Shown: positions 15,052-42,920 of the stretch, piece by piece
Position numbering within the stretch: the first letter of the stretch is position 1
Layout: each line of letters opens with the position of its first letter
Assembly (NCBI RefSeq): GCF_000172155.1
Contig: NZ_ABIZ01000001.1
Span: forward strand, 3,443,105-3,507,104
Origin: Verrucomicrobium spinosum DSM 4136 = JCM 18804
Lineage (GTDB): Bacteria > Verrucomicrobiota > Verrucomicrobiia > Verrucomicrobiales > Verrucomicrobiaceae
Reading direction: 5' to 3'
DNA length: 64,000 nt
The notes under the pieces: model-generated
Databases searched by the model: none
The model's input: the letters and a program-made list of their open reading frames with translations, nothing else
What the model was told of the DNA's origin: nothing
Made by a program: the position numbers and the translations under genes

Positions 15052-15071
15052 CCCTTGTCGCTCCGTCCGCC

Positions 15072-15965: not shown

Positions 15966-16009
15966 TTTGACTCGACCCGACCTGAACGGAAGAGCCCCCC
16001 CCTACAGCC

Positions 16010-17764: not shown

Positions 17765-17768
17765 CAAG

Positions 17769-18704: not shown

Positions 18705-19432
18705 TGGCAGACAATTGTCTTGTTTGGAAAGGGTTCCGTCAGATTTGAGAAAGGTTGCTCACCTGACAGAAGGTGAGGGGCTCAATTAGGTGTGTGTATG
18801 GATATAAAAGGGTTGAAAATTAAGATTGGATTGGGCTCTACAGCCAAATGCGAACTGATTGTATCTAGACTGACAAACAAAACGAACTGCGGATCAGTAG
18901 AGCAATGTTAAAGCATGCGCCTACTCCATTGCGACAGAAAAATATCAGGGAATCTAAATCAATCCGGTAAGTGCGCGCCGTTTAAACGGTTCATCAAGAG
19001 CGATATATAAATTGGAGATTGGACTTGGGCACCCAACCCGGGGGAACCCGAAAAACACTCGTGCATGGAGCACCTCGTGGTCTTTGACGGTCAGGTGCAT
19101 GGAGTATCTGCGCATTCTGAGTGGTGGATCTAAGCCGTAGCTTGGGTGGTGCTAAGCAAATTCCTTGCGCACATTAGTTGTTTCTGAAACAAATGGACCC
19201 TTCCGCGTATATCAGTGCTGACGTGACTCCATTGTAGGTACAAGCCATCTGTTCCAAGCGATCCTGCGACTCGTTCCCGAGAGGGGTGAGGACTTTCGTG
19301 TTGGTGAAGTTGGCTTTTGCCCCCTTTGGATACCCCTCGGCAAAGCAGGCTCTGTTGATAGGCTCCCACCTTGTCATTGAGCCAAGCACTGCCCGGCATC
19401 TCGAATTGTCCTCCTCACCTCGCTTGTCCCTC
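18705..19432. other. 728-bp AT-richer leader upstream of the giant gene
   Basis: No gene was recognised. The composition is visibly more AT-rich than the surroundings. Features seen are a 7-bp stem hairpin CTCACCT-gacaga-AGGTGAG (18758-18777) without a T-tract, a 12-bp palindrome CCGTTTAAACGG (18978-18989) and a nearby TATATAAAT (about 19003) that could be a -10 region. A frame in phase with the giant gene opens at GTG 19286 but encodes no signal sequence. The region plausibly contains the promoter and a long untranslated leader. Confidence 0.4.
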
Positions 19433-22400
19433 ATGAACTTTTTCACCCGCTGTCGCTCTTCCCTTGCTGGCATCACAGTCGCTATCGCCGTCTGTAGCCA
19501 GCTGGTTCCAGCCCATGTGAGAGCGGCGGACTACTACTGGGACCCTGCGGGTGATCAAACCAACTCAGGCGGTTCAGGCAATTGGGATGTGACCAGTCTC
19601 TTCTGGAACAACGATGATGTGGCGCCTAATTCGGCTTGGTTCAATGCAGGCAGCACGCAGGCGTTTTTTCAAGGGACCGGCGGGCAGGTGACCGTCACGG
19701 GTGGCACCGGCATTAATGCGGATGCCATTGAGTTTCTGGTGGATGGTTATGTCATCCAGTCGGCAGCGCTGGCCGACGTCTTGAATCTGAACGGGGCCTC
19801 AACAATTTCGGTGACTGAGGCGGGCCATACCGCCACCATTCAGTCCGCCATCGCTGGCTCGACGGGGTTGATCAAAACTGGGGCAGGACGCCTCATACTT
19901 TCTGGGGCGAACACCTTCACTGGTGGGACGACAGTGACCTCAGGCGCTTTGCAGGTTGCCGTTGCAACCGGCGTCAATCCTCTGGGCACGGACAGCATCA
20001 CGCTGAGCGGTGGGACGCTGGAACTGATCCCCACGGCAGCCACCACCACACAGGGTGCCTCGTTTCGCATTGGGTCAGGTGGTGGCGGTGTTGTCAGCTC
20101 AGTAAACTTCGGCACGCTCACCAGCGTGGTGACCGGCACCACCGCAAACATGAACCTGCCTTCCATGAGCACCGGGACCGTGCTGGGACCGAATGCTCTA
20201 CCAGGGCAGGTTGCGCTGGTTAACTACGGGGTGGAGTTCCGGGGCAAGATCAACCTTGCGACGGGTGGAACAGTCACCTTTGCGCTCGCCTCGGACGATG
20301 GTTCCAGGCTCTATATTGACGGCGTAGCGGTTGCCAACAACGACAACGGCCAAGGGGTGGGGACGCCCGTGACCGCCACGATCGCGCTGAGTGCCGGGCT
20401 CCATGACATCCGTGTATTGGCCGGTCAGGGTACAGGCGGTGCCGGGGTGACGCTCACCTGGATCCCACCAGGGGGCTCCAGCGAGGCACTCGGTGCCACA
20501 GCAGGCACCTTGTATGCGGCTGAGTCCGTCTCCACGGGAGCCACCAGCAATGCAATTGTCCTCGGGAACAATATGTTCCTGACGGACTCATCTACGATCG
20601 ACTTTGGCACCAACGCCAATTTCACAGAGGTGGCCTATGGATCATTGACCCGGTTCGGTGGAACGACGCTCACGGTCAATGGCCTCGCGGGGAAGCTGCT
20701 ACGGTACACCAGCACCAACCTCAGTGGTGGCGGCACCCATACCTATGACTCAGCCATGGACGTGGCGGTGGGGCAGATCTCTGATGGTGGACTGGCCTCC
20801 ACGATCGTCAAGACGGGGTCCGGGAGGCTGATCTTTGATCAGGTCACCCTGGCCAACAACCTCTCTGCTTCCAGCACTATTCGCATTGATCAAGGCACGG
20901 TGGTGGGCATCGGCAGCACCGCTGCAGGTTCGAACAACCCGTTCGGCTCTGCCGCTCTTCAACTCAATGGTGGCAACCTGCTGATTGATTCCTACGTGGG
21001 AGGACCCACCTTTAACAACGTCATCACCGTCAGTCAGAGCGGTCGCATTTTTGCGCAAACGGTGGCCGCGCAGACCACCACTCTGGGGGGCGCGATTTCC
21101 CTCGCAAATGGCACCACCCTGACCCTCGACCCGGCGGGGAACACCACCACCGGCACCGCTCCTCGCGGCGCGGTGCTGCGGCTCAACGGGGTGATCTCTG
21201 GAAACGGAGCCATCGTGCAGAACAGCAGCTCCTATGGCTTGGTTTCGGGTGCGTACACTCGCGGTGAGGTCGTACTCGCCGGGGCCAATACTTTCACGGG
21301 CGGTTACACGGCACTCAACAACAGCATCATCCGAGTGGGGGTGAACAGTGTGGGCAGCTCTCCAACGATCACCAGCGGTGCCTTTGGCACTGGATTGCTC
21401 ACCTTGGGGAATAGCTCCGGCGGCACCACCACCATCACGGCGCTGGACGGTACCGCGCGTTCTGTTGCCAATGAGATCAAGTTTCTGGACAATCTGGCCG
21501 CCGGGGCCACCGCCACCTTCACAGGCGCGATTACTTTCAGTGGTTCAGCGGATCTCAGCGGTGCGATGCGGACCATCGCCGCCAATGTGCAGACGACGTT
21601 TTCCGGCGTGATCTCCAGTTCCAGCAGCAATGCTACCGCCGGCATTGTGAAGACCGGGGGCAGCATCCTTCAATTGGACGGAAACAACACTTTTGCTGGC
21701 GGTGTGAGTTTCAGCAACGCCAACAATGGAGGTGTCATCCGGGTTGGTCATGACAACGCTCTCGGTACCGGCGCGCTGGTGTTTGACCTCAATACCAACA
21801 ACACCACCATCCGCTTCCGCGCATCCACCGCCACCGCCCGGGTGTTGAACAATGCCGTTTCCTTCACCGGAGCCAATACGAATGCTCCCGTGGTATTTGG
21901 GGAGAGCGGCAGCGGCACCCTGGAGTTCAATGGCAACTGGGATCTGGGCACTGCGGCCCGCATCCTTCAGTTTGACTCGGCGGTGACGGTTGACGGCGTG
22001 ATTTCAAACTCGGCTGCCATCGCCAAACGAGGATTCAGCACCCTGACCCTGACGGCGGCCAACACTTACACGGGGACCACGACGGTGCACGACGGCACGG
22101 TGGTCGTGGCCGGGAACGATGCCAGCATTTCAAGCAGCTCTGGCATCACGGTGCAGAATCGACTTTCCACCAGCGCGGCCAGTCTCGTCGTTGGCAGCAC
22201 GACAGACGTTGTCGCGGGTTCCCTGAACCGTCTGGGCAACTCCTCCACCATCACCTTCAACACGACTAACGGAGGGGGGAACATGGGCAATCTGGCCCTG
22301 ACCTACAACGGACCTGCGTCCGTAGGCTCAGGCGGGTTTGTGGAGACCATCGGCAGTCTCGCTTTCCAGGGGGGTGGCCTGGTGACGCTTACCCTGAATC

Positions 22401-25400
22401 CCGCCGCAGGGCAGGAACTTGCTCTTGTGCAAAACACTGGCACGACCTGGACGACCACCGGCACCACGGTGTTGGTTCGCGGTACCAACCTTGGCTCAGC
22501 CACGGGGCCGGACACCGCCCGGCTGATCCTTGCGAGTGCACCTTTCACCCGCCTGACCGGCGGGGTGCTAGCCTCCGTCATCACCTCCTCCTCCGCCACG
22601 GGGACGGGCACCACCTTCGCGACGTATGATACCGTCAACGGCATCCGGGGGCTGACCAATGGTGAATATGCCTCCACCCTGGTGGCAAATGAAAACATCA
22701 GCATCGGGGGAGACGCGACCCTATCAGGCGATCTCGCCATCAACTCCCTGCGTTTCACGGTGGGCGGTGCAACGCTCAATTTGGGTGGGAATCACCTCTG
22801 GGTGAAATCTGGAAACGTGTTGTTCAACGCAGCCTCGACGATCAGCAATGGCACCCTCGATTTTGGCGTGCAGACGGGCAGTGTTTCGCTCATGGGGGGG
22901 GCCTCCGCTCTGAATCCTGTGAGTCTTGCCGCTGATCTCTACGGGATGCGGGGCTTGAACTTCGCCAGCGATCTCCTGGCGAATCGCGCCATTCTGAGCG
23001 GCGATAATCGAAGACTCCTGGGGCCGGTGACTGTGGCAAATCTCACGCTCACCTTGGGCAGCACCCATGCACTCAACGACTTCCTGCCGCAGGATCTGAA
23101 TATCGGCCAGTCAGGGGCAGTGCTTCAGCTTGGAGGCAACAACACTCTCACCGGGTCACTCAACCGCGGCCTGGTGGATGGGGTCGGCGGTGGGGTCATC
23201 ATCGAGAACGCCAGCGCCAACGCGGCCACGCTCACCATTCAGCAGAGTGCCGCAGGCACCTTTGCCGGCACCATTCGCAACGGAGCCGGGGGCGGGGTTC
23301 TCAGCCTCGTGAAGACCGGGGCGGGCACGCTGGATATGCAAGGAGACAGCAGCCAGACGATCACCAACGCGATTTCTGGCTCGCTCACCGTGAAGCGGGG
23401 GATCTTGCAACTCTTCCGAGCCGGTGACCTTGACCGGATGACCACCCTCAACATCGCGGGTGGTGGCACGCTCCGTCTCGCCAACCGGGCCAGTCCAAAC
23501 AACAACACCGACCGCCTTCTGGACACTGCTGCAGTGAATATGAGCGGGGGCACGTTTGATTTTGACAACGACGCCGCTGGGGGGACGAACTTCGCGGAGA
23601 ACGTCGGAGCTCTCAACATCCTGGCAGGTGCCAACACTGTACGCTCTGACCGTGCCACTACCAACCAGACCACCACGCTAACCTTCGCGCAGCTCAATGG
23701 ACCCGCGACTTCCGCCGGGGCCACTCTGAACTTCACCGGTGACGGCACGGGCATCGGCGACGACACGCGCAACCGCATCGTCTTTACCACTCCACCGACC
23801 ATCCCAGCAGGAAACAACTCACTGATTGGTGGCTGGGCCTTTGTGAACGGATCGGACTTCGCCATCTACAACAGCACGGGTACGATTTCAGTCCGCGCCG
23901 CTCAGGCGGCCGACTACCAGACGGGTTCGGAAACCACCTGGAACTTCAATCAGAACGCGGCACCGGCAGCGGACGTCACCACCACTGCCAGCAGGAACGT
24001 CAATGCACTGAAGCTGGGTGATGGCATCGACATCACCATGGCTCCCACTCACACGCTCAACATCGAGCTTGGCGGAATTGTCAAATCTGGTACCAACGCC
24101 AGCATCTTCCGCGGCGGTTCTCTCACCGCCGGAGACACCAGCGCGCAGAACCTGTACGTCTTTACCAGCACCGGGCTGACGCTGGATACGGACATCGTGA
24201 ACAACGGCGGAGGTGGCGTGGTGGGCCTGGTGAAGAGCGGCGGCAGCACGCTCACTCTCACGGGGGTGAACTCCTATACTGGCGGCACCTTCTTGAATGA
24301 AGGCACCCTGATCATCAACTCGGACGCGCGTCTGGGAGCATCTTCGAGCGCGTTGCACCTGCGCGGCGGTACCTTGCAGGTGGCGGCGGGCACCACTGGG
24401 GTGCCTTCGGTTCGTCCCATCACTCTCGCGCGCAGTGTCACCATCAACGACGCTGGCGGAACTCTGGACGTGGGAACGGCCAATACCGTCATCATTGATG
24501 GCACGCTGAGTGGCAGCGGTGATCGCGGCACGCTCGGTCTGGTGAAGGCCGGCGGTGGCACCTTGGTGCTGGCCGGAAACAACACCTTCACTGCTCCAGT
24601 GACCATCTCCGCAGGAATACTGTCCATCAGTGCAGATGCCAATCTGGGCGTCGCGCCCACCACTGAAGTGGGGGACTGGCTGACGCTGAATGGTGGCACC
24701 CTAAATACCACGGCCAGCTTTACTCTCAATGCCAATCGCGGCGTCAATGTAGCGACCAACAGCACCCTTGATGTGGCCACAGGGACCGTCCTCAACATCG
24801 GCGGGGTGCTTACGGGCACGGCCAACGTGACCAAGACTAGCAACGGCCTGCTCAACTTCCAACAGGGGCTGATGCTTCAGGGCTCGCTCTTCTGGCAGCG
24901 CGGAAACGGCAGCCTGGCAGGCTATCGCAATGACATTCTCGGCAGTCTGCGCGTGGGGGACAACACGGTGAACACCGCCACCGACGTGGGAGCCGCGACG
25001 GTAACGTACAGCACCGCGGGAGGCATCCTCACGGTGGGCAGCGGCACCAGTGACAATCTGGACATTGGCGTGCGTAGCACCAACGTGGCTGGCATTACCC
25101 AGGGCAAACTGGATCTCACGGGCACCGCGATGCTCAATGCCAACGTGGCACGCGTGCGCCTTGGTGTGGAATTGGGGGGGAACGGCAGCGGCGATGTTTT
25201 TGGCAACTTGGTTCTTGGGACCAACGCCACCATCTTGGCTTCCACGGAGGTCTTGATCTCTGACAGCAATGCCGTCGGCATTGTCGCACAGAGTGTGCTC
25301 CAGACCGGTTCGGGCAACACCATAATTCAAACTCCCCTCATCACCGTCGGCGGTCGTAAGGGCTTAGGCCTTTTGACGGTCGGCACCGGGGGCACCTTGA

Positions 25401-28400: not shown

Positions 28401-31400
28401 ATGCCGTTTACGGCGGCAGTACCTGGGCAGTCGCCAATGGTTCAGGAACGGCCATCTCTGGGCTTCTGGGGGTGAGCTACTCCGCTGATGCCTTTGGCAC
28501 CAGCCTGCACACTGATATCACCACCACACAGAGTACTGCGGAAACCCAAACGGGCACGCTGCGATTCAACACGAATGCAGGTGGAGCCATCGATTTGACG
28601 CTCAACTCGAATCTGGACATCTCCAGTGGCGGTATCCTTGTCACGGGCAATGTGGGAGCAAACACGGTTCGCATCCTCAAAGGAGGGGCTGCGACCACTC
28701 TGGGTGCTACGGGGTCAACTGACGTCATCGTTCATCAGCTGAATCCGTATGGGAACTTGGAGATCGACGCCGTGATCATCGGCGGTACTGCCAGCCACTT
28801 TACCAAGAGCGGTAACGGAAATGTCATCCTCACCGGAGCCAACACTTACACTGGGACCACCTTCATCCTCGGGGGCGTGCTCCAGATTGGTAATGGCGTC
28901 TCGGGCTCCATTTTGGGAACGTCCACCATCGACAACCGTGGTGGGCTGGTCTTCAACACCGCAGCCTCCACCGACCATACTGGGGTGATCAGTGGGTATG
29001 GATGGCTGGAAAAGACGGGTTCCAATCTGGTCAACCTCAATGCCGCGAACACCTACACCGGCCGCACGCGGCTTCTGGGAGGAACCTTGCAGACCAACAA
29101 CGTGGCAGGCCTCGGCAGTGCCACCAACAACATCACGACCGTGGCCTCGGGTGCCACGCTATCCTATGCGCTGACCGGGGCCGGAAACGTGGATGAAAAT
29201 ATCCATCTGCTCGGCGGCACGCTTGCCGTCGCCGGCGCGGGCGATGCGACGTTCCGCACCATCCTGGGGCTCACTGCTGACAGTACCATTCAAGTGGCAG
29301 CCGGACGCTCGGCCATCTTCAATACGGCTTCATCCATTATTGCAGGCATGGAAGCAGACGGCACCCTTGCGGATATCACGGTGCAGGGGGGCGGGACAGC
29401 CACCTTCCAATCGGCATCGAACTTTGGCGACCTGCTGATCAAAGGAAACTCGGTCGTCAACATCGGCAATAACACAGCGGGCAACGTCGGCGCGGGCGTT
29501 TACTACAACAACGGTTCCGTGGGCGCGATTTCCATTGAAGCCGGGTCTTCGCTGTTCATGCGCCGGAACTTCGACAGCGCATTCCACCATCAGCTTAGCG
29601 GAGCGGGCAGCCTCACATTCATGCAGAATACCAACTACGTGAGCCAGAACAACTCCGGGTTCAGCGGAGCGGTTGCGATCGGTGTGGCGGGTTCGGGCAA
29701 TGCCGCCGTCCACCTTGGGCTTGAAGGGTTCAGCGGCGATCTGGGAACGGGGACGATCACAATCAGCGCGAATGGTGGTTCGGCTTCCACGCTGCGAGTG
29801 AACCGGATGGACAATGTGGTGTTGACCAACAACTTTGTCCTTAACGGGGCTACGTCCAACGCCCAATTGGTGAAGAACGTTCAGAACGTCGTAGAGTACT
29901 CAGGCTCCATCACGGCGGGTGCTGCCACGACCACAGATGGTCAGACTGCCAGGGTCTTTTCCCAGGCGGGTTATCTCAGACTCACGGGGGACCTGATCGA
30001 CAGCGCCACCAATGCTCTGCGGCTGGAGAACAACTCTGTTATTGATCTTGCTGGCAGCCTGAATCGCGATCTCGCCGCCAATAGCGTGATCTCCGGGGGC
30101 GGATTGCTGCTCCACAACGGTTCCGGCATCACCACGCTCCAGGCGAACAACACCTACACCGGCAGCACTGTGGTTAACCGCGGAACCTTGGTTTTCGACC
30201 GCAGCGGAGGAGCCATCGCAGACAGCAGTGCACTCTATGTGGCGGGACAGGGGACAGTTCAGTTTAACTTTGCGGAGACCCTGGGGTTACTGGGATCGAA
30301 CCGTGGTGGACGGGTGGTGTTGAATAATGGGGCTGCTCTGACCCTCAGTGGTCTCGTCGGCACGACAAACACCTCCAGCTACTACTCTGGCACCATTGCT
30401 GATACAGGAGTGGGCACTGGATCGGTAGTCAAAACCAACACTGCGACAACGCTCAGCCTCTATGGCACTAATAACTCCTTTGGGGGTGGGGTGGATATCC
30501 GTCAGGGCACGGTGGAAGTGATGTCGATTGGACTGGTGGGGGCCAATAGCTCGATCGGCACGAACGGTACGGTGATCCTCGGCAATAGCGGCGATACGGG
30601 CACCCTCCGTTATTTGGGATCAGGAAATACCGCGTCTCGTGTCTTTCAGCTTGCTGGAGCCGCCGGCGGCGGGACTATTGAGGCCAGCGGTAGCGGTGCG
30701 CTTGTTTTCAATGCATCTTCTTCTGTCTCCGCAACCGCAGCCACAGCCAAAACCTTTACCTTGGGTGGGAACACAGGCGTGCTGGTGGCCATTGGGCCTT
30801 ATAGCCCGATCATCAACGTCTTTGGAGGGGTGATCAGCGACGGCTCCGCAGTGGTCAGTCTGACCAAGTCCGGAACGTCCGTGTGGGAGCTTTCCAACTC
30901 CAACACCTACACCGGACTTACGACGATTGGCGGCGGGGGCGGCCTCCGCGTGACTTCCAACAACGCTTTGGGTTCAGCAACCGGGGTCACGACGCTCAAC
31001 AACGCCACCTTGGATCTGGTGAACGTCAACTATACTACGGCGGAAGCTCTGACCATGAACAATTCCGCTGCAGTGCTACGCACTTCCAGCGGCACCAGCA
31101 CCTTCGCGGGGACGGTCACCCTGGCGGTGGCCGGTGCCATGCAGGTGGATGCCGGGGCAAGTTTGCAGCTCAATGGATTGGTTTCTGGAAACTTCGCGCT
31201 TACCAAGAATGGCAACGGATTGCTGATCTTTAACAACGATCTCAACACGCTGAACAGCGGTTTCACCATCAACAGCGGGAGCGTCCGCCTTCTCGCTGGC
31301 AGCAACAACCGGCTCAATGATGGGCTGCTGGTCACGCTCGCAAATACCGCGGGTATGGGGGCGGTGCTGGAATTCCGCAATGCGTCGGAAACCATGGGGC

Positions 31401-34400
31401 GTGTATCCGGTCAGGTGGGTTCAACCATCACCCTGGACGGTACGGCGTTGACTCTCAATGTCACCACGGATACCACCTTTAACGGGGTGATTCAGAATGG
31501 CACCACTGCTGGCAGCATCACCAAGACGGGTGCCAACCGGCAGGATTTCAATGGGCTCAATACCTATACCGGTACCACCACCATCTCTGGTGGTACGCTG
31601 CGCATCTGGCGTCTCGCCAACAATGGGGCTGCCAGTGGGATCGGCATGGGCGGAGCCTCGCCTACGGCAGCGGATCTCGTCATCAATGGTGGCACGTTGG
31701 AGTTCGTGGCGCTCGATCCGTCCACGAATGCCAACTCAGGGTTCACTTCCTTTAGCACAGATCGCCAGTTCACGGTTGGGACGGCAGGGGCCACCATCAG
31801 TAACAGCAGCACCAGCCCGCTGGCCACTTACAGCTTCACCAACGGAACCGGAAGTGTGGACATGTCTGGTGCCGGGGCTCGTACGCTCACCCTTGGCGGT
31901 GCCAATACTGGCGGCACCACAGGCCTCAGCGCAGGTCTCAACAGCAATGACAACGTCTTCGGTCTTTCTATTGGCGACGGTCCCACCTCTGGCAGCGACT
32001 TCACCGCTCTGACGAAAGCCAACGCGGGGACCTGGGTGCTGACCCGCTCCAACAACTACTCCGGACTCACCACCATCTCAGACGGCATCTTGGTGGTCAC
32101 TCAAAACAACGGCCTGGGCAACACGACCGGTGGCACAACGATCAACGGAACCAACGCCACCCTGGAATTCCGCGGCGTAAACTATGCTGCGGCTGAGGCT
32201 GTCACCATCACGACCGGAAACATCCGCGGCTCGGGTGTAAGCACCTTCGCGGGTGGCCTCACTCTCAATGGCTCGAGCCATCAGGTGAACGTGCTCGGTG
32301 CCTCGGATTCCCTGACTCTGACGGGGGTGGTCAGTGGAACGTCCGCCAACGCGAACCCGCTGTTGATCAAGCGAGGCCTCGGCACGCTGGTGCTGGCAGG
32401 GCAGAATACGCTGCTAAACGGCACGGCGGCCAGCGATACGATCCGGGTAGAGGGGGGAACTCTGGCCTTGGACTACACTCTTGGTACGCCCAATACCTCG
32501 CGCATCGCGGATACCGCCATTGTCAGGCTCGGCGGCAGTCGCAGTCCCGGCGCGACGCTAGAGCTCCGTGGAGGCTCGCACGTTGAGACGATAGGGAGCT
32601 TTGCGATGTTTGAGGGTGCCCATCGCATTATCCGTACGGGTGGGGGTGCCACCTCCCGGATCAATCTCAACGCGATCTCCCGCCAGGCGGGCTCTTCTCT
32701 GGACATCCAGAATGGCGACATTGCCACCACGGACAACACCAATACCAATGGCATCATTGGAGGCTGGATCACTGTTAATGGCACCGACTGGGCTCAGAAT
32801 TCGACAAACGCCGCAGATGGCTTGATCACGGCATTTACCAGCTACTCCAATGATGTCTGGGTGCACAACAGCAACGTCAACGTGACCACGAACGCCACGG
32901 AGTCTGGCCAAATCAATACGCTGCGGTTCAACACCGCATCCAACATCACGCTGAATCTCGGCGCGGTGATTCTTGATTCTGGCGGACTCCTGGTGACACC
33001 CGGTGCAGGGGCCAACACCATCCTCCTCAATGGCGGCACTATCGCGGTCAATACAACTGCCTCCAGCGGCAGCAACTTGACGGTCATCCATAACGGCGCG
33101 GGCATCCTGGAGATCAACTCCAGCATCATCAACAATGGTGGTACAGGTCTTGGTCTTCTCAAGTCTGGAACCGGCACTCTCGTGCTTTCAGGAGACAACA
33201 CCTTCTCAGCGCGCTCCTTCATCGCGGCGGGGATGGTGCAGATCGGCAACGGCGGCGCGACCGGTACGCTAGGCAACAGTGCCGTGGCTCTTGACTTGTT
33301 CACCGGGGCAACTCTGCGGTGGAACACCACTACCGATCAAATCTACTCGGGGGCCATCACCAGCTTGGCGACGGTGGATCTGGATGCCAACACGCCCGGC
33401 GGCGGCCTGCTGGTGAAGGATAACACCAACGTTCTTACCTTCAGTGGTGACAACAGTGCCTATTCGGGGGTGATTAGAGTCAACGCCGGCAGGCTGGTGG
33501 TGAACCACAATAGCGCGCTGGGTGCCGCTGGAAGCTTCTACACGAACACAGGTTACACCGAGGTCAACTCTGGTGGAATTGTGGAGATCCTGAACTCTCG
33601 CAGTTCCGGGGAATCGATTCTGATGAACAACGGGGGGCGCCTCCTCATCAGCACTGCGGCCACCGCTGTAAGTGGGACGTTTTCTGGTCCCATCAAGTTC
33701 ACTGGAACGAACAATATTGTCGAGGCGCAGACGAACACGACTCTGACGCTGTCCGGTGCGCTGCTGGGTACGGGTGGGTTCACCAAGTCGGGCAGCGGTG
33801 TACTGGTTCTTAGCGGAAACTTCTTGGATGCGAACACTCTGGGTTCACCGCTCACGGGCAAGATCACTGCCACGGCGGGTATTCTGCGGGCAGGTAGCGT
33901 TCGCGGATTTGGCGCGGGTGGGGTTGGCAATGAAACCGTCATCCAGTCGGGTGCGACCTTTGATCTCAATGATCAGGATCTGAATGTTGCCGATGAAACT
34001 GCCACTTCGCGTGAGATCTTCCAGATCAGCGGGACGGGGGTTTCTTCCAACTACGGTGCCATCACCAACCTGGGGGGAGGCTCCGCATTCATCTCCCATA
34101 TTGAGCTCACGGGAAATGCCAGCATCGGTGGCAGCTATCAAGGCACGACGGATGGCCGGTTCGACGGACGGGCCACCGTTTTGTCGGCATTTGACATCGA
34201 TCCCAATGCCAACTGGCACAACTGGCAGCAAGCCACGCTCAAAGGCAATGGCTTCAACCTCACCAAGATCGGGGCCAATGGCTGGATCTTCCGCAATGTC
34301 GATATCACCAGCATGGGACTGCTCACGATAGCCGAGGGACGCGTCTTCCTGGATGAAATGCGTGTGCTGGACTCCGCTGCGTCTGATGCCCAGCTTTACG

Positions 34401-37400
34401 CACCCACTTTGCTGAGAGCCTCCCAGATCCAACGAGTCGTTGTGGCCTATGGTGGTCCTACGATTGATGCTGTGACGAACACCTTGAACCCCATATTTGG
34501 GGCCAAGCTGGTTTTCAACAACCAGAACAACACCGTCGGCCAGACCAATGACGTGCCTATTACCCTGAACAACGGCTACATCGAAGTACGAGGTGACACG
34601 AACTCCCACTCCGATGTCGCCAGCGGTCGTGCGCCCATCGTCACCCGCCTTTCCGGCGAAATCACGTTGGAGGGGGATGCCACTCTGAATTTCTTCAACA
34701 TTGAAGGTGGTAACGTCACTTCGCCCACCGCTCTCAGCGGCATCTTGAGTGAAGTGCCCAACAAGCTGGTCATCAGTGGCTCACTCACTGGCAACAGCGG
34801 TTTTGCCAAGCTAGGATCGCGTGAGCTGCGCCTGACTGGGAACAGCACCTTCACCGGGGCCACCTATCTCACACGCGGCACCTTCGGCACCTTCCCGTTC
34901 TACGATCTTTCCCAAGGCTATGCCGACTATTGGGGAACCGTGCTCTCTGGACCTGCCGGGGCGCTATCGGGGACCTCCAAGGTCCAGTTTGAGCGCAATG
35001 CACATCTGATGCTGGACAATTCTGATACGTTGGATGCCAGCTCCGGTACCACCACAGTGGGGCCCAATGGCAACCGGATCAACGACTCCGCGAGCCTGGT
35101 GATGAACGGGGGTTATCTTGAGATTCGTCCCTATAATACGGGAGCTTCCAGTGAAAGCATCGCCACCGGAGCGGGCTCCACTCTCAGCATCAATCGTGGT
35201 ACGAACTTCATTGACTTTGATCTCTTTGATCAGGCAGTGGATCTCAACCAGAGCCTGACACTCACGATCGGTAACATCAGCCGCAGCGAGGGGGCCGTGC
35301 TGAAGTTCCGTAGCTTCGATTCCACCTCCACGTTCAGCACCAACAGCATCGGTGACAGTGTGCGTGTGGTGGTGAACAATCCTGCCGGTCTCGCACTCGT
35401 CGGAGCGGGCACGGGGCTGACGGACAAGGCGATTGCCCGGGGCATCTTCGGCGGCATCGCGCCTTATGCGTCGGACTTCCGTGTTTCGGATTATCTCTCC
35501 CAAGAGCGCAACCGTCAGCAGTTCACAGGAACTCACTTTATGACACTGGATGCAGGAAACATCCTGCGTCCCTTGAATTCCAACGAGTACGCGACCTCAC
35601 TGATTGCCGGTCAGAACGTGAATCTGAGTGAGATGTACACCGTGGCCCGGAATTCCATCAGCATCAATGCGCTGCGCCTCGGGAACCTGCAAAACAACAA
35701 TCAGACCGGGGGCTTCGGTCAGGATCAGAGCACGTTGGTGGATCAGGAAAATACCACGGTCACCCTCGCCATCGATAGCGAAGCCACTGTTTCCATTGAG
35801 TCCGGAATGATCATTGCGGCCTCCATGGGGTCCGCCAACAACGGCACTGGCATGGTGATTCAAGGAGGCGGCACACTGGATTTCGGAGCCAATGAGGCCA
35901 TCATTCAGAGCAACGGAGGATTCTTCCGACCCACGGACGGCACCTATCAGGGTTCGAGCCTGGAGATCCGTACCCGAATTGCCGGCACAGGTGGATTGAG
36001 CAAGACCGGCTTCCAGAACCTGTTACTGGAAAGCGCGAACACCTACAGTGGCAACACGTACGTCAGTGAGGGCTCCCTGATTGCCCTCAACAATCAGGCC
36101 TTGGGGAACTCCAAGCAAGTGTACGTGGATGCATTGGGCAACTTCATCATCGCGGGCGGAACCAACCAGGGGGCGGGGTCGAAGATCACCGCCAGGGTGC
36201 TGAGCGGCGATCAGATCGTCCTCCGCAGCTTGAGCGGAAGCGGCCAGGTCAATACTTGGGCCGGGGACGTTGAAATCGACAACGTGGATGCTTTGGGCCA
36301 CGCCTTGTTCCTTCCCCGCCTGCGGGCAGAGAGCAACTCGGTACTCCGGGTGGAAGGAAATATCTTTGGAGGAACCACCGCCATTACCAATGACATCTAC
36401 TTCAGCGACTCCCGCATCGTTTCCACCGCCTCCGATCAAACCAACAACATCTTCTTGCTATACGGACAGGTGCGCGACAAGGCCTCCGGGGCCGTGAGCG
36501 GTACCGTAACCCTCCAGCCCACCGGTGGCGGGCTTGTGAATGAAAACGAGGTGATGCGCTTCCATGTGGGGGGGCGGGATGACACCAACGTCGTGATGTA
36601 CAGCCAGTACAACGCTGCGGGTCGCCTCATTCTGGACCGCGGCTACCTGCGTCTCATGTATGACCCGAACGCGGTCGGTAACGATGGAGCTGGATTCTGG
36701 ACCGACACTGCATTGTCCCGCATCCCCAATGGCAACTCCAATGCCGTCCTTCAGAGTGCTGGCGATCCAACTTCTGGGATGACAGGCTTCATCATGGGGA
36801 CCAATGTGACGGAAGCGGGTGGAACCTCCCGTACCAGCCTCCTCCTGACGCAGGATCAGCAGCGGTTCAACATGGGGCAGTGGCGGGTGAATAACTCCTC
36901 GACGGGTACCTTCCTTATTGGCGGTGAAAACACTTCCGGAACCGTTTACTTTGGCAATGGCTCGGCACTGAGCACCATCGAGCTCAACTCCCGCAGTGTG
37001 AACCTCTACGCTGCCGCTGGCGGCACGGTGGAATTCCAAACGCGCTTCAACCGAGTCGCGGGCAACGGAGGTTACACGAAGGTCGGCCGCGGCAATGTCA
37101 TCCTCTCTGGTAGCCTCGCAGGTGGCAGCAACGCCGATCGTCTGTCTGTGCGTTCAGGTCGTCTGGTATTTGACTACGGCACCGGCTCCACCGGGCTCAA
37201 TACGAATCGCGTGGATGGGGCAACGCTCCTGACCTTGGGCGGCGGCACCCTGCACCTCCTGGGGAATGACCAGGCGGCGACGGCTCAGACGATGACCGGG
37301 GCCATCGCGGTGAGCCGCGGCGGCAGTGAGGTGGCGGTAGAGTCCAGATCGGGCACGGGGGCGTTTAATACTTCCCTTGCCATTGGTGGCAGCGGTTCCG

Positions 37401-40400
37401 CGCTGACCCGGTCGGCTGGTGGTACGGTGAACTTTGTGGAGGTGGATCCGCTGGGCGGTGGCTCTGCAGTGCTCACCTTCCAGACCAACACTGCTGGCAT
37501 TATGGATACCCTCCAGGGATGGGCCACCTATGGTAATGCCCTGGGCCAGGCCAACGACTTCGCCTTCTTTAACACCACCGGCTCGGTTCGCGTTGTTTCC
37601 TTTGCTCGTCCGGCTGGCCAGGAGAAAAATGATGTGTCCACTTGGCTGGCGGGGGAGAACGTCTCTGAGAACAACACGGCAGGTTCCACCGGGTTCACCG
37701 GCACATTGGGCGCGTCTCTGGCGGTGAACTCCATTCACTTCGATGTGGCCGCAGACAGCACCATCAATCTGGGCGCGAACAACCTGACGGTGAGTTCAGG
37801 CGGTATTCTGGTCTCCAGCCAGGTCGGCGGGGCGAACAAGACCATCACCGGCACCGGTAATCTCACGGGTTCCACCACGGAGCTGATTCTTCACCACTAC
37901 GGCACGGGGACGCTCGAGATCGCCACACCGATCTCTGGATCCAGTTACAACCTGGTGATCAATGGGGCCAAGTCCACTTCGGGCGCCCCGGCGGAGGTCA
38001 ATGCAGCAGGTGTGGTTCGCCTGAGCGCAACCAACACGTTCTCTGGCAAGACCTTGCTTAACGGGGCCATCCTCTCGGTGGACAGCATCGTGTCCCGTCT
38101 TGGTGCAGATCCGGGTTCAGTCGTGGGGGATCAACTCTACTTCAATGGTGGTGCATTGAGATTCACCGGGACTACCGCGAATAACTCTATCAACCTGAAC
38201 CGGGGTATCACCTTGGGGAGCAGTGGGGGCGCCCTTGAGGTGTCGGATCCCAGTGGCGTGTTGATCTTGCGCTCAGTGATTGCTCCTGAGAATGCCGGCA
38301 GCCAGGGTGACGGAGATCTCATCATCCGGGCCAATGGGGCGGTTCAGTTTGGTCTGGGCGGCACGGGAACGAATACCGATGGCGTTGCCAATACTTATAG
38401 CGGGATGACCATCGTCGAGTCGGGAACTGTCATCGTGGAGGGTCAGCCTGGTTCCGATGCCACCATTGATCCCTTTGGAACCAATGAGAGCTATCTCGAT
38501 GCGACGTACATGAAGAATGGCACCAGCTTGATAGTCCGGCCCACCGGTTCCAACACCAACCAGGTCCGGATCAACGAGTGGTTTGTCTTCGAAGGAAACA
38601 ACACACTGACGACTGGCGGCATTGACTCAACCGGAAACAACTCCGCCCGGCAGATCCGTCTCAATGGTGTTTTGGACGTGCGCGGCACTCTGATTTTCAA
38701 TGCCATCAGCGAACTCGTGCTGAACTTCGATGGGGCAAACGGCTTCATCACGGGCAATGGCACGATCATCAAGCAGGGCACTGGGACCGTTCAGTTCCGC
38801 GAAAACTCGCCGGATTGGAAGGGGCAGCTCATCATCAATGAAGGTCGCGTGCTGGCCGGCAGCCAGGGCAATCCGCTGGGGACCGGCACCCTTCCCATCC
38901 TGATGGGCAACGACAGCATGCCTGCTGGAGGGACGGCCCAGTTGATGCTGCATCCCGAGAACGGCTGGGGGAACTATGAGATCAACCACGATATCGTGGT
39001 GCGGTACAGCCCGCTGCAGGAAAAGCGCATCGGCGGCATCAGCATTAGTGACAGCGTTCCTTTCGCCAATCTGGCGTTCAACGGGGACATTGAGCTGAAT
39101 GACAACGTGACCTTCATACTGGAGGACGGCACGACCGCCCCTGGAGGAAACTATGTTCACATGTCCTTCAATGGTGACATCAAGGACGGTGCCAGCACTT
39201 CTGGCAATATCCTCTTCCGGGTGTTGGCTTCCGACAGCTCCGTTGGAGAGATGTGGACCTATTTTTATCTGAATGGCAACAACTCGGCCTGGACCGGGGA
39301 CGCCATCATCAGTTCCAACACGAGCTATGATGATGACCAGAACGCCATCGTGCGAGTGGGCAGCACGAATGCCCTGGGCATGGCCAATGATGTGATCATG
39401 AACTTCAACTCCCGTCTGCAAATTGCCGGGTTTGACACCACGATCGGATCGCTCTGGACTCAGGGCGGAACGGGAGTTCAGAGCACAGAAGTCATCGAGA
39501 ACGGTTCCAACACAACCGCCTCTCTGACCATCACTCAATCCACCCCGTCAACGTACGAAGCGCAGTGGGATGCCCTCTTCCAGGATGGGAACCTCGCCAG
39601 TCACTTGGTACGTCCCGATGAGGCTCAGGCGGGCACAGGCAAGTTCAACTTGGTGAAGGCTGGGGACGGCTGGGCCACCATGACGGTCAACAATGGCTAC
39701 ACTGGCACGACAACCGTGGCCGCGGGGGTCCTTCAGGTGGGACGCAATGGCATTGGTGACACGGGAGCAGACAACAACGCGGGAGGCATCATCGTGCAGT
39801 CTGGGGCAACTCTCGCGGGGACGGGCGTCGTCCAAGGCAAGGGAGCTGGGTTCACGCAGCATTTGATTTCCGGGAACCTCAAGCCGGGGGATCTGGCAGG
39901 AGAATCTACGGGAACCCTCACGTTCAATGGCAACACGAAGTTCGAGAACGCCAACGTGTCCCTTCAGATCTTCCGCGCCTCTTTTGTGGACTACGGCCTG
40001 ACTGCCTACGACCTGAACAATGATGGACTGGTCGATTCGACTTATGACAGCCGTGTGGCCGCCTTACCGAGTACCTACAGCAGTCTGCTGGCGGAGCCAG
40101 TCACACCGAACGCCCACGATCACCTGGAGATCAACGGCACCTTGACGGTAACGGGCACGAAGTTCTCGGTCGTGAGCACTGGTTATAGCGCGCAGATCGG
40201 CGATGTGTTCAATCTCATGGATTGGGTGGGGACTCTGGCCGGGTCATTGAACGTGGGAGATCGCCTTCGTGTGGGTGGGGAAAGCGGCACTGATCTGGAT
40301 CTGCCCACCCTGGGCGGTGGCTATCGCTGGGACACCTCATTGTTTGCCTCACAAGGCATCTTGATTGTGACGGCGGTGCCTGAGCCAAGTCGGGCGCTCC

Positions 40401-40450
40401 TGTTGCTAGTCGGATTGGTGATGATTACTCGCCGCCGCCGTCGCCGGTGA
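19433..40450 (+). CDS. Giant exported beta-strand-repeat protein with PEP-CTERM anchor, 7005 aa
   Basis: One uninterrupted frame of 21 kb. ATG 19433 gives a signal peptide (TRCRSSLAGITVAIAVCSQL, cut near VRA-AD), so it is preferred to the GTG at 19286. About residues 209-345 form a PA14-like domain (GVEFRGKINLATGGTVTFAL, SDDGSRLYIDGVAV, GLHDIRVL). The bulk is autotransporter-associated beta-strand repeats of the pattern GTGxLxLxGANTYTGxTTVxxGTLxVG; I count about 27. They predict a long beta-helix. A second module recurs six times. Near residue 6860 a Ca2+-loop-like DLNNDGLVD appears. The end is VPEPS, a hydrophobic helix and a run of six arginines, a PEP-CTERM sorting signal. No C-terminal beta-barrel is present. 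It is probably a surface or matrix adhesin. An exosortase would be needed and is not in this window. Confidence 0.9.
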   Translation: MNFFTRCRSSLAGITVAIAVCSQLVPAHVRAADYYWDPAGDQTNSGGSGNWDVTSLFWNNDDVAPNSAWFNAGSTQAFFQGTGGQVTVTGGTGINADAIEFLVDGYVIQSAALADVLNLNGASTISVTEAGHTATIQSAIAGSTGLIKTGAGRLILSGANTFTGGTTVTSGALQVAVATGVNPLGTDSITLSGGTLELIPTAATTTQGASFRIGSGGGGVVSSVNFGTLTSVVTGTTANMNLPSMSTGTVLGPNALPGQVALVNYGVEFRGKINLATGGTVTFALASDDGSRLYIDGVAVANNDNGQGVGTPVTATIALSAGLHDIRVLAGQGTGGAGVTLTWIPPGGSSEALGATAGTLYAAESVSTGATSNAIVLGNNMFLTDSSTIDFGTNANFTEVAYGSLTRFGGTTLTVNGLAGKLLRYTSTNLSGGGTHTYDSAMDVAVGQISDGGLASTIVKTGSGRLIFDQVTLANNLSASSTIRIDQGTVVGIGSTAAGSNNPFGSAALQLNGGNLLIDSYVGGPTFNNVITVSQSGRIFAQTVAAQTTTLGGAISLANGTTLTLDPAGNTTTGTAPRGAVLRLNGVISGNGAIVQNSSSYGLVSGAYTRGEVVLAGANTFTGGYTALNNSIIRVGVNSVGSSPTITSGAFGTGLLTLGNSSGGTTTITALDGTARSVANEIKFLDNLAAGATATFTGAITFSGSADLSGAMRTIAANVQTTFSGVISSSSSNATAGIVKTGGSILQLDGNNTFAGGVSFSNANNGGVIRVGHDNALGTGALVFDLNTNNTTIRFRASTATARVLNNAVSFTGANTNAPVVFGESGSGTLEFNGNWDLGTAARILQFDSAVTVDGVISNSAAIAKRGFSTLTLTAANTYTGTTTVHDGTVVVAGNDASISSSSGITVQNRLSTSAASLVVGSTTDVVAGSLNRLGNSSTITFNTTNGGGNMGNLALTYNGPASVGSGGFVETIGSLAFQGGGLVTLTLNPAAGQELALVQNTGTTWTTTGTTVLVRGTNLGSATGPDTARLILASAPFTRLTGGVLASVITSSSATGTGTTFATYDTVNGIRGLTNGEYASTLVANENISIGGDATLSGDLAINSLRFTVGGATLNLGGNHLWVKSGNVLFNAASTISNGTLDFGVQTGSVSLMGGASALNPVSLAADLYGMRGLNFASDLLANRAILSGDNRRLLGPVTVANLTLTLGSTHALNDFLPQDLNIGQSGAVLQLGGNNTLTGSLNRGLVDGVGGGVIIENASANAATLTIQQSAAGTFAGTIRNGAGGGVLSLVKTGAGTLDMQGDSSQTITNAISGSLTVKRGILQLFRAGDLDRMTTLNIAGGGTLRLANRASPNNNTDRLLDTAAVNMSGGTFDFDNDAAGGTNFAENVGALNILAGANTVRSDRATTNQTTTLTFAQLNGPATSAGATLNFTGDGTGIGDDTRNRIVFTTPPTIPAGNNSLIGGWAFVNGSDFAIYNSTGTISVRAAQAADYQTGSETTWNFNQNAAPAADVTTTASRNVNALKLGDGIDITMAPTHTLNIELGGIVKSGTNASIFRGGSLTAGDTSAQNLYVFTSTGLTLDTDIVNNGGGGVVGLVKSGGSTLTLTGVNSYTGGTFLNEGTLIINSDARLGASSSALHLRGGTLQVAAGTTGVPSVRPITLARSVTINDAGGTLDVGTANTVIIDGTLSGSGDRGTLGLVKAGGGTLVLAGNNTFTAPVTISAGILSISADANLGVAPTTEVGDWLTLNGGTLNTTASFTLNANRGVNVATNSTLDVATGTVLNIGGVLTGTANVTKTSNGLLNFQQGLMLQGSLFWQRGNGSLAGYRNDILGSLRVGDNTVNTATDVGAATVTYSTAGGILTVGSGTSDNLDIGVRSTNVAGITQGKLDLTGTAMLNANVARVRLGVELGGNGSGDVFGNLVLGTNATILASTEVLISDSNAVGIVAQSVLQTGSGNTIIQTPLITVGGRKGLGLLTVGTGGTLTLDAGAPGVTDLYLGRNAIDTATWSRGVLDASAGTLVASLDELVMGDKSSGGNTGVATGVLITGNSADNQVSANSVVLGRMGASASRNLAGETSGTLVWGGGNLNVAGDIALGQDLGSNVGGYVSGVLTINGGVVTVGGNISYTATASSRGQVNLNGGELDMTNGSISATSFVHRGGTLANVTSVTAGSAHDAFSFGDVNVNYAVNLTSTGSANYSYVGTGAGATYSQNIDFGAYYRDFVVADSAGASADLTVSGLLSGTGGFSKSGAGTMVLTANNTYAGRTQVLHGTLVVGDGGTAGSLGGAAAAVVVNGTLAFNRSDSLTLANQVTGYGSLNQRGGGGTLILTGANNYMGGTVISTGSTLQVGDGGTAGTLGSGAVQNAGTLVFNRSDSFVVGNVISGSGSVVKNGAGTLTIELPASYTGSTSINSGTLALGRGQRFLNGANVLASSMMAPTAAVTVTSGATFSVTDSRNRVLKIGSLSGSGNVVVGGATASVGGLIVETNNPTPITFGGVMQNSTVAGFFIKAGTGEMILTGGNTYTGFTRVDDGTLTVNNATGAIADASALVMSNRNTAVFNVVLSETVGALIGGGRNFAYQGVNTFAPTPSSTASQSVAVGGDGASRITIASGQTLTSSSATNSTFGGVIEGAGSLTITGGNRNLLLYGANTFTGGLRIGTSGADGGTVYLGVAGRATGVGSVYGADFRGSLADNLVVTFENRANTNFNLNSVSETIGTLAGGGSTGGNVSLGTGLAVLTLSDGNTSYGGVISGNGSVVKQGAGVLTLGGASTFTGSFRISAGRVDANVANVFADSLRMIVDAGAEYRLLQNDTIASLEGAGTVNLNAGTARALTLASPNGRVFSGNIIGTGGSLTIGSANNWGGAITLTGANTYTGATTITNATLILDQSGTGGNNILGATAMTFNGTTIDMRGLLGTETAGNTTLGAGATSIFRWGTAGFENHTARLALGTITRIAGSALYVNNTSAETIQSNVSGLNILGGYAVYGGSTWAVANGSGTAISGLLGVSYSADAFGTSLHTDITTTQSTAETQTGTLRFNTNAGGAIDLTLNSNLDISSGGILVTGNVGANTVRILKGGAATTLGATGSTDVIVHQLNPYGNLEIDAVIIGGTASHFTKSGNGNVILTGANTYTGTTFILGGVLQIGNGVSGSILGTSTIDNRGGLVFNTAASTDHTGVISGYGWLEKTGSNLVNLNAANTYTGRTRLLGGTLQTNNVAGLGSATNNITTVASGATLSYALTGAGNVDENIHLLGGTLAVAGAGDATFRTILGLTADSTIQVAAGRSAIFNTASSIIAGMEADGTLADITVQGGGTATFQSASNFGDLLIKGNSVVNIGNNTAGNVGAGVYYNNGSVGAISIEAGSSLFMRRNFDSAFHHQLSGAGSLTFMQNTNYVSQNNSGFSGAVAIGVAGSGNAAVHLGLEGFSGDLGTGTITISANGGSASTLRVNRMDNVVLTNNFVLNGATSNAQLVKNVQNVVEYSGSITAGAATTTDGQTARVFSQAGYLRLTGDLIDSATNALRLENNSVIDLAGSLNRDLAANSVISGGGLLLHNGSGITTLQANNTYTGSTVVNRGTLVFDRSGGAIADSSALYVAGQGTVQFNFAETLGLLGSNRGGRVVLNNGAALTLSGLVGTTNTSSYYSGTIADTGVGTGSVVKTNTATTLSLYGTNNSFGGGVDIRQGTVEVMSIGLVGANSSIGTNGTVILGNSGDTGTLRYLGSGNTASRVFQLAGAAGGGTIEASGSGALVFNASSSVSATAATAKTFTLGGNTGVLVAIGPYSPIINVFGGVISDGSAVVSLTKSGTSVWELSNSNTYTGLTTIGGGGGLRVTSNNALGSATGVTTLNNATLDLVNVNYTTAEALTMNNSAAVLRTSSGTSTFAGTVTLAVAGAMQVDAGASLQLNGLVSGNFALTKNGNGLLIFNNDLNTLNSGFTINSGSVRLLAGSNNRLNDGLLVTLANTAGMGAVLEFRNASETMGRVSGQVGSTITLDGTALTLNVTTDTTFNGVIQNGTTAGSITKTGANRQDFNGLNTYTGTTTISGGTLRIWRLANNGAASGIGMGGASPTAADLVINGGTLEFVALDPSTNANSGFTSFSTDRQFTVGTAGATISNSSTSPLATYSFTNGTGSVDMSGAGARTLTLGGANTGGTTGLSAGLNSNDNVFGLSIGDGPTSGSDFTALTKANAGTWVLTRSNNYSGLTTISDGILVVTQNNGLGNTTGGTTINGTNATLEFRGVNYAAAEAVTITTGNIRGSGVSTFAGGLTLNGSSHQVNVLGASDSLTLTGVVSGTSANANPLLIKRGLGTLVLAGQNTLLNGTAASDTIRVEGGTLALDYTLGTPNTSRIADTAIVRLGGSRSPGATLELRGGSHVETIGSFAMFEGAHRIIRTGGGATSRINLNAISRQAGSSLDIQNGDIATTDNTNTNGIIGGWITVNGTDWAQNSTNAADGLITAFTSYSNDVWVHNSNVNVTTNATESGQINTLRFNTASNITLNLGAVILDSGGLLVTPGAGANTILLNGGTIAVNTTASSGSNLTVIHNGAGILEINSSIINNGGTGLGLLKSGTGTLVLSGDNTFSARSFIAAGMVQIGNGGATGTLGNSAVALDLFTGATLRWNTTTDQIYSGAITSLATVDLDANTPGGGLLVKDNTNVLTFSGDNSAYSGVIRVNAGRLVVNHNSALGAAGSFYTNTGYTEVNSGGIVEILNSRSSGESILMNNGGRLLISTAATAVSGTFSGPIKFTGTNNIVEAQTNTTLTLSGALLGTGGFTKSGSGVLVLSGNFLDANTLGSPLTGKITATAGILRAGSVRGFGAGGVGNETVIQSGATFDLNDQDLNVADETATSREIFQISGTGVSSNYGAITNLGGGSAFISHIELTGNASIGGSYQGTTDGRFDGRATVLSAFDIDPNANWHNWQQATLKGNGFNLTKIGANGWIFRNVDITSMGLLTIAEGRVFLDEMRVLDSAASDAQLYAPTLLRASQIQRVVVAYGGPTIDAVTNTLNPIFGAKLVFNNQNNTVGQTNDVPITLNNGYIEVRGDTNSHSDVASGRAPIVTRLSGEITLEGDATLNFFNIEGGNVTSPTALSGILSEVPNKLVISGSLTGNSGFAKLGSRELRLTGNSTFTGATYLTRGTFGTFPFYDLSQGYADYWGTVLSGPAGALSGTSKVQFERNAHLMLDNSDTLDASSGTTTVGPNGNRINDSASLVMNGGYLEIRPYNTGASSESIATGAGSTLSINRGTNFIDFDLFDQAVDLNQSLTLTIGNISRSEGAVLKFRSFDSTSTFSTNSIGDSVRVVVNNPAGLALVGAGTGLTDKAIARGIFGGIAPYASDFRVSDYLSQERNRQQFTGTHFMTLDAGNILRPLNSNEYATSLIAGQNVNLSEMYTVARNSISINALRLGNLQNNNQTGGFGQDQSTLVDQENTTVTLAIDSEATVSIESGMIIAASMGSANNGTGMVIQGGGTLDFGANEAIIQSNGGFFRPTDGTYQGSSLEIRTRIAGTGGLSKTGFQNLLLESANTYSGNTYVSEGSLIALNNQALGNSKQVYVDALGNFIIAGGTNQGAGSKITARVLSGDQIVLRSLSGSGQVNTWAGDVEIDNVDALGHALFLPRLRAESNSVLRVEGNIFGGTTAITNDIYFSDSRIVSTASDQTNNIFLLYGQVRDKASGAVSGTVTLQPTGGGLVNENEVMRFHVGGRDDTNVVMYSQYNAAGRLILDRGYLRLMYDPNAVGNDGAGFWTDTALSRIPNGNSNAVLQSAGDPTSGMTGFIMGTNVTEAGGTSRTSLLLTQDQQRFNMGQWRVNNSSTGTFLIGGENTSGTVYFGNGSALSTIELNSRSVNLYAAAGGTVEFQTRFNRVAGNGGYTKVGRGNVILSGSLAGGSNADRLSVRSGRLVFDYGTGSTGLNTNRVDGATLLTLGGGTLHLLGNDQAATAQTMTGAIAVSRGGSEVAVESRSGTGAFNTSLAIGGSGSALTRSAGGTVNFVEVDPLGGGSAVLTFQTNTAGIMDTLQGWATYGNALGQANDFAFFNTTGSVRVVSFARPAGQEKNDVSTWLAGENVSENNTAGSTGFTGTLGASLAVNSIHFDVAADSTINLGANNLTVSSGGILVSSQVGGANKTITGTGNLTGSTTELILHHYGTGTLEIATPISGSSYNLVINGAKSTSGAPAEVNAAGVVRLSATNTFSGKTLLNGAILSVDSIVSRLGADPGSVVGDQLYFNGGALRFTGTTANNSINLNRGITLGSSGGALEVSDPSGVLILRSVIAPENAGSQGDGDLIIRANGAVQFGLGGTGTNTDGVANTYSGMTIVESGTVIVEGQPGSDATIDPFGTNESYLDATYMKNGTSLIVRPTGSNTNQVRINEWFVFEGNNTLTTGGIDSTGNNSARQIRLNGVLDVRGTLIFNAISELVLNFDGANGFITGNGTIIKQGTGTVQFRENSPDWKGQLIINEGRVLAGSQGNPLGTGTLPILMGNDSMPAGGTAQLMLHPENGWGNYEINHDIVVRYSPLQEKRIGGISISDSVPFANLAFNGDIELNDNVTFILEDGTTAPGGNYVHMSFNGDIKDGASTSGNILFRVLASDSSVGEMWTYFYLNGNNSAWTGDAIISSNTSYDDDQNAIVRVGSTNALGMANDVIMNFNSRLQIAGFDTTIGSLWTQGGTGVQSTEVIENGSNTTASLTITQSTPSTYEAQWDALFQDGNLASHLVRPDEAQAGTGKFNLVKAGDGWATMTVNNGYTGTTTVAAGVLQVGRNGIGDTGADNNAGGIIVQSGATLAGTGVVQGKGAGFTQHLISGNLKPGDLAGESTGTLTFNGNTKFENANVSLQIFRASFVDYGLTAYDLNNDGLVDSTYDSRVAALPSTYSSLLAEPVTPNAHDHLEINGTLTVTGTKFSVVSTGYSAQIGDVFNLMDWVGTLAGSLNVGDRLRVGGESGTDLDLPTLGGGYRWDTSLFASQGILIVTAVPEPSRALLLLVGLVMITRRRRRR
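19860..39730 (+). repeat. Array of about 27 autotransporter-associated beta-strand repeats
   Basis: Irregularly spaced coding repeats of about 30 residues share G-(A)-N-T-Y/F-T-G-x-T at the core and a following G-T-L strand. Examples occur near 19904, 22060, 24250, 27010, 28060, 28840, 30160, 31560, 36040 and 39700. Copies have diverged at DNA level, so this is an ancient protein repeat and not a recombining DNA array. Confidence 0.85.
22620..37830 (+). repeat. Second, longer module repeated six times in the giant protein
   Basis: A module of about 80-110 residues recurs near 22620-22830, 23826-24100, 28389-28690, 32755-33010, 35540-35830 and 37516-37830. Its pattern is a GGW/Y-A-x-x-N-G-x-D-x-A strand or a variant of it, a variable linker with a T-rich segment, then I/L-x-x-L-R-F and a strand ending SSGGIL. 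Examples are GGWITVNGTDWAQ with LDSGGLLVTPG, and GWAFVNGSDFAIY with LNIELGGIVKSG. Spacing is wide, 1-5 kb. Confidence 0.6.
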
Positions 40451-42764: not shown

Positions 42765-42920
42765 GTTGGGATGATGAAACAAGGGTATCGGGAACAAATA
42801 CGAAGGGTAATAAATGGTGTTTCAGCAATATCGTGCATCACTGATCACAAAAGTATCAGAACACGACAAAGACCAACTGCCAATGTCCCTTCACAACGAT
42901 GCGTGACGCAAAATGTTGAA

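Follow-up and report, generated by a model that had tools for sequence, protein, structure and literature searches.

PEP-CTERM proteins were first seen in Verrucomicrobium spinosum, in which Haft et al. counted 65 of them, who proposed that an exosortase delivers such proteins to the surface or to extracellular material (PMC1569441). Two further papers link PEP-CTERM and exosortase genes to floc and biofilm formation in other bacteria (PMC9850573, PMC12188702). For Akkermansia muciniphila, another study records that 9 of 23 PEP-CTERM proteins were detected by mass spectrometry, more so in the intracellular than in the outer-membrane fraction (PMC4960237), a bias that does not favour a surface location. 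Among the papers listed by literature searches on these topics, none deals with the protein described below or on the combination of PATR (autotransporter-associated beta-strand repeat) sequences with a PEP-CTERM tail.

Here we describe a 7,005-residue PATR/PEP-CTERM protein of V. spinosum, encoded on the plus strand at 19433-40450 of the window, by which we mean the 64,000-nucleotide stretch of DNA that was analysed (positions 3,443,105-3,507,104 of a contig of 8,220,857 bases). With a probability of roughly 0.7, we regard the product as an exosortase-processed, very long beta-helical surface fibre, which may serve as an extended adhesin or give structure to the matrix.

An intact 21-kb gene and its orthologue

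Translation of 19433-40450 (+), from ATG 19433 to TGA 40450, yields 7,005 residues with a single stop, at the end, for a precursor of 704 kDa and pI 4.9. The initial annotation had reported a frame of this length without a stop, and that claim stands: first-order Markov modelling of the region predicts 149 chance stops over the 7,005 codons (ln P about -151), and the remaining five frames of the same interval contain between 71 and 427. Third-position G+C lies between 0.676 and 0.746 in all 14 full 1,500-nt blocks. The stop-free frame begins at 19238, and a mechanical list of open reading frames places the start at GTG 19286, for which the orthologue gives no support; ATG 19433 is the better start because the signal-peptide methionine of the orthologue aligns there.

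This syntenic orthologue is found in Verrucomicrobium sp. BvORR034, which, like BvORR106, is a relative within the same genus. The two proteins share 5,702 identical residues over 7,000 aligned positions (81.5%), interrupted by just nine indel runs, one of which is a 29-residue frame lead-in ahead of the orthologue's methionine. The comparison gave a dN of 0.123, a dS of 1.49 and a dN/dS of 0.083, a rough figure since dS is near saturation; these values come from a single species pair. Because the ratio falls between 0.046 and 0.130 in each of fourteen 500-residue blocks, the full length of the protein is, judged from this alignment, under purifying selection. That an open frame of this size must be under strong selection had been asserted from its openness, which by itself is no proof; the selection is borne out by the orthologue, through its low dN/dS and scarce indels. 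A 21-kb single gene that is kept in frame and almost free of indels between species argues that its full length is used. A promoter scan found no sigma-70-type promoter-like site upstream of the gene, as might suit an unexpressed or decaying relic, but constraint of this order over 7,000 codons, present in 14 of 14 blocks and accompanied by no frameshift in either species, leaves that explanation hardly credible.

Tandem Repeats Finder listed no DNA tandem array in the gene, and a repeat search returned one family, consisting of nine diverged 33-nt copies. The repetition of the gene exists at the protein level. Collapse or expansion of repeats during assembly is therefore unlikely, and the independent, intact orthologue makes it unlikely that the published sequence conceals a frameshift; we accordingly rejected an assembly artefact or a DNA-level repeat expansion as the source of the frame.

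Gene order around the locus is the same in BvORR034: a GDSL-type gene, Ku, LigD, LigD polymerase, the giant gene, two reverse-strand frames, a sigma factor, a kinase and a response regulator. The giant protein (81.5%) is conserved less than most of the flanking proteins compared (84.5-99.6%), whose best segments reach 96% for Ku, 84.5% for LigD, 89.6% for the polymerase, 97.7% for the kinase and 99.6% for the sigma factor. Directly upstream, at 15042-18704, Ku, LigD ligase and LigD polymerase are separate adjoining genes, and their order is likewise kept. Downstream, long open frames occur on opposite strands at 41418-42797 (-) and 41463-43124 (+). Since the former is 97% identical in BvORR034 as against 79% for the latter (best segment), the minus-strand frame is probably the real gene rather than the plus frame that overlaps it.

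The upstream DNA contains a patch at 19097-19246 (+) that is 73% identical with the DNA upstream of the orthologue and is possibly a regulatory element. It had no match better than E 0.11 in the upstream DNA of the other PATR frames examined, and an upstream motif common to PATR genes was accordingly dismissed. Three terminator-like sites lie downstream where 0.9 would be expected, one of them on the plus strand 720 nt away. An Rfam search returned nothing except two tRNAs, and no exosortase gene was found among the annotated neighbours in the window.

Anatomy, predicted fold and a possible route to the surface

The protein begins with a signal peptide recognised by eye (residues 1 to about 31; 19433-19525, +), with probable cleavage near VRA/A, which aligns with that of the orthologue. 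Its only two cysteines, residues 7 and 21, both lie in this peptide, and 26 of the 27 PATR frames compared are cysteine-free from residue 120 up to their final 30 residues. The PATR region (19868-39739, +) extends from a first repeat at residues 146-175 to a last at 6740-6769. A local HMM detected 25 repeats of at least 8 bits and none in 20 shuffles, while hmmscan of two overlapping pieces of the protein found 15 and 13 stretches of PF12951 and 16 and 15 of TIGR02601, so that the count across methods is some 25-31. A PA14 domain (PF07691; residues 264-354; 20222-20494, +), scoring 36.7 bits against a cut-off of 24, is probably carbohydrate-binding. At the C-terminus, residues 6982-7005 (40376-40447, +) form a PEP-CTERM sorting tail consisting of VPEP, a hydrophobic stretch and RRRRRR, matched by TIGR02595 at 20.2 and 24.8 bits (cut-off 16). 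The initial annotation had overlooked all three features, that is repeats, PA14 domain and sorting tail, as well as the many paralogues described below.

PATR repeats and a beta-helix are typical of autotransporter passengers, and one might therefore place the protein among the type Va autotransporters or the TPS exoproteins, in which case a barrel of its own or a partner transporter would take it across the outer membrane. The whole protein matches the ShdA adhesin model, if weakly (64 bits, cut-off 2249), and the genome encodes two PF03797 barrels elsewhere, at 3422598 and 8097567. However, PEP-CTERM forms the end of the chain, and a search of both halves at E 1 or better found no PF03797 barrel, no RTX family and no TPS domain (PF05860), the last of which would be expected within residues 1-3600. 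A genome-wide search for PF05860 also gave no match, but it says little because its control matched nowhere either. This anatomy, as read from the sequence, already makes export as an autotransporter or TPS protein unlikely, and membership of the autotransporter, TPS and RTX classes was rejected.

A structure was predicted for the last 1,106 residues with the help of 22 homologues: the AlphaFold model of residues 5900-7005 (37130-40447, +; pLDDT 84.6, pTM 0.74) has strands throughout and a membrane-type C-terminal helix at model residues 1086-1102. Foldseek alone listed 44 PDB entries up to E 10, none of which reached E 0.001; the best was 7jvi, a beta-helix domain of gut-metagenome origin (E 4.4e-3, probability 1.00). 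VIA-align superposed the model on 7jvi over 320 residues at 3.4 A (Z 21.2) and on the EspP passenger over 333 residues at 4.8 A (Z 17.9), and further autotransporter passengers followed EspP in its ranking. These alignments were run on the candidates from Foldseek, so that families absent from that list are not thereby excluded, and they mostly cover model residues 528-1085, the first half of the model being barely tested. Sequence searches with residues 1668-5000 found no solved structure at E 0.01. It is thus credible that the C-terminal part of the fibre is an autotransporter-type beta-helix, and the repeats suggest the same fold for the residues outside the model. The beta-helix proposed in the initial annotation thus gains from the predicted fold of the last 1,106 residues and from PATR repeats between residues 146 and 6769, although the model supports it for residues 5900-7005 alone; the accompanying notion of a fibre of great extension is a plausible conjecture.

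Generally known passenger dimensions would give a beta-helix of very roughly 100-150 nm for 7,000 residues. A length of this order invites comparison with the multiple fimbriae that V. spinosum is reported to bear at the tips of its prosthecae (PMC12283558), of which the protein could conceivably be the material. Such an identity is very unlikely, however; no fewer than 35 further PATR frames are present in the genome.

The route that we favour, drawn from the protein families involved, would start with export from the cytoplasm by Sec via the signal peptide. The PEP-CTERM helix would then keep the protein in the inner membrane until one of the cell's exosortases cut it and handed it on, and it would end attached outside the cell or in the exopolysaccharide matrix. 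The chain is predicted to fold as a long, cysteine-free, right-handed beta-helical rod of diverged PATR-containing rungs, near whose N-terminus the PA14 domain would probably bind carbohydrate. There the rod might work in adhesion or as scaffolding of the matrix, roles commonly supposed for rods of this sort and weakly hinted at by the PA14 domain and the repeats. A passenger of autotransporter type is here paired with a sorting tail for the inner membrane, which raises the question of how a beta-helix of 7,000 residues would get past the outer membrane with no barrel of its own.

The PATR family, exosortases and exchanged tails

A genome search with TIGR02601, in which 150 matches of 503 candidates were listed and assigned to frames by hand, places the protein within a large family. 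Among the matches listed there are at least 36 PATR frames, amounting to 83,829 codons or 3.1% of the genome; the number is a lower bound, as these 36 do not include a 2,556-aa frame that has both PATR repeats and PEP-CTERM. A PEP-CTERM match was present in 34 of the 36. Of the remaining two, a 1,234-aa frame ends in VPEP..RRRR and scores 17.5 bits with PF07589 (cut-off 20.7), and a 1,778-aa frame lacks an end of this type. In the whole genome, 61 PEP-CTERM matches were found at E 0.1 or better, with 150 of 156 candidates scored. Other PATR frames of V. spinosum reach 6,874 and 6,285 aa, and fibre homologues of other genera range from 5,117 to 8,871 aa. Therefore, the description of the protein as one of the longer bacterial proteins is true in general, but its length is ordinary within its lineage.

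Four PF09721 matches over the cut-off identify exosortases in the V. spinosum genome, in a search whose control returned one match among 14, in M. jannaschii. Two of the four are over the TIGR02602 cut-off, one over that of XrtZ and one under it. Two XrtZ-like exosortases lie about 6 kb apart at 7255740-7262149 (594 and 317 bits, cut-off 475), separated by signalling genes (locus L067). Another exosortase, near 703.6 kb, sits among genes that by eye resemble glycosyltransferases, and an EpsI-like gene adjoins it (EpsI 35.4 bits, below the cut-off of 42.8). This setting, the co-occurrence of PEP-CTERM with exopolysaccharide genes and the proposal of Haft et al. that such proteins join extracellular material (PMC1569441) are all in keeping with an alternative to the cell-anchored fibre, namely a protein of the exopolysaccharide matrix that the cell releases. 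The present data do not separate the two; we consider release into the matrix a serious possibility, though the less probable one.

Of 38 relatives, 24 have a match to the last 2,005 residues of the giant protein (23 of the 25 family members and 1 of the 13 others in the order), and an exosortase was present in all 25 family genomes and in 34 of the 38 relatives. Between genera it is mainly the C-terminal part that aligns, from about residue 3985 to 7005 (31385-40447, +), with 31-39% identity in the better chained matches. One relative, G013, carries tandem fibre homologues of 5,976 and 6,359 residues, both ending in PEP-CTERM (contig C51, 562-37621; L021, L022). In G025, a 2.4-Mb relative of the same order, a single open frame of 21,153 residues, three times the length of the V. 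spinosum giant (contig C1, 76-63537, +; L121-L124), starts like a signal peptide and carries an autotransporter barrel at its C-terminus (PF03797, 116 bits).

We compared the tails of 23 fibre homologues, namely the window's gene and those 22 of 46 loci with matches of at least 300 residues to the last 1,106 residues. Nine end in PEP-CTERM, and in the other 14 this tail is replaced by Ig-like domains and a C-terminal domain of about 420 residues, of which one locus (L080) shows just the first 28 residues before its end. Ig-like domains (PF13927, PF07679 or PF05345) were found in all four scanned homologues with the alternative tail. On a fibre tree built without the tail, two tail changes are needed and are forced by well supported branches; none of 500 shuffles required as few, a figure that near-copies inflate. 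The PEP-CTERM and alternative tails thus appear to have been exchanged at least twice among the fibre homologues.

The alternative domain (L060:4950-6209 (-), L091:10483-11745, L092:12553-13986 and others) had no match in Pfam (4 examples, E 0.1) or in NCBIfam (2 examples, E 0.001). An AlphaFold model from 11 sequences (mean pLDDT 58.1) was too weak for naming a fold, and Foldseek with this model gave no match at E 0.001 or better. Matches to its last 300 residues came from 17 of the 38 relatives, with as many as 56 in one genome; none came from the four genomes of this genus, that of V. spinosum among them. Twenty further regions were taken from the highest-ranking matches that lie outside the giants, and in all 20 the domain closes the frame, with 0-18 residues left to the stop; one match with an in-frame stop was passed over, and one region (L137) is itself a fibre homologue. 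One relative (G037, 96% complete) has eight matches to the domain, and no exosortase was found in it. We consider the domain a candidate second sorting or anchoring tail. By a wider and tentative reading, for which we would give somewhat less than even odds, the fibre is a standard surface rod with an interchangeable export tail, which in Prosthecobacter/Brevifollis-type relatives consists of Ig-like domains followed by the all-beta domain of about 420 residues. The latter, which also ends many unrelated secreted proteins, would then be a further signal by which Verrucomicrobiota sort proteins to the outer surface, independently of exosortase. Should the unnamed domain and PEP-CTERM have one and the same task on this rod, their comparison could reveal both the role of PEP-CTERM and a new sorting signal, and the interchangeable tail is the part of these results most worth following.

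Comparison with known systems

The giant protein resembles the PEP-CTERM, exosortase-sorted proteins (TIGR02595, EpsH family; PMC1569441) in its signal peptide (assigned by eye), in its C-terminal tail of VPEP, hydrophobic helix and arginines, and in the presence of exosortases in the genome. Unlike the usual members of that class, it is very long and its chain is mostly predicted PATR beta-helix. With the passengers of type Va autotransporters (Ag43, EspP, IcsA and others) it shares PATR repeats in a cysteine-free passenger that is predicted to form a right-handed beta-helix, whereas the C-terminal translocator barrel of the PATR-bearing autotransporters is lacking and PEP-CTERM stands at the end instead. 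Similarly, it is like the giant bacterial surface proteins of the 'huge proteins' survey (PMC11573180) and Giant1-5 of Apilactobacillus kunkeei (PMC12863079) in being the product of a single gene, several thousand residues long, with a presumed surface role, but the repeats and anchors of those proteins differ from those of the V. spinosum protein. On the best reading, the protein belongs to an already known kind, with about three dozen related proteins in its own genome, to which, going by its sequence, it would be a large addition.
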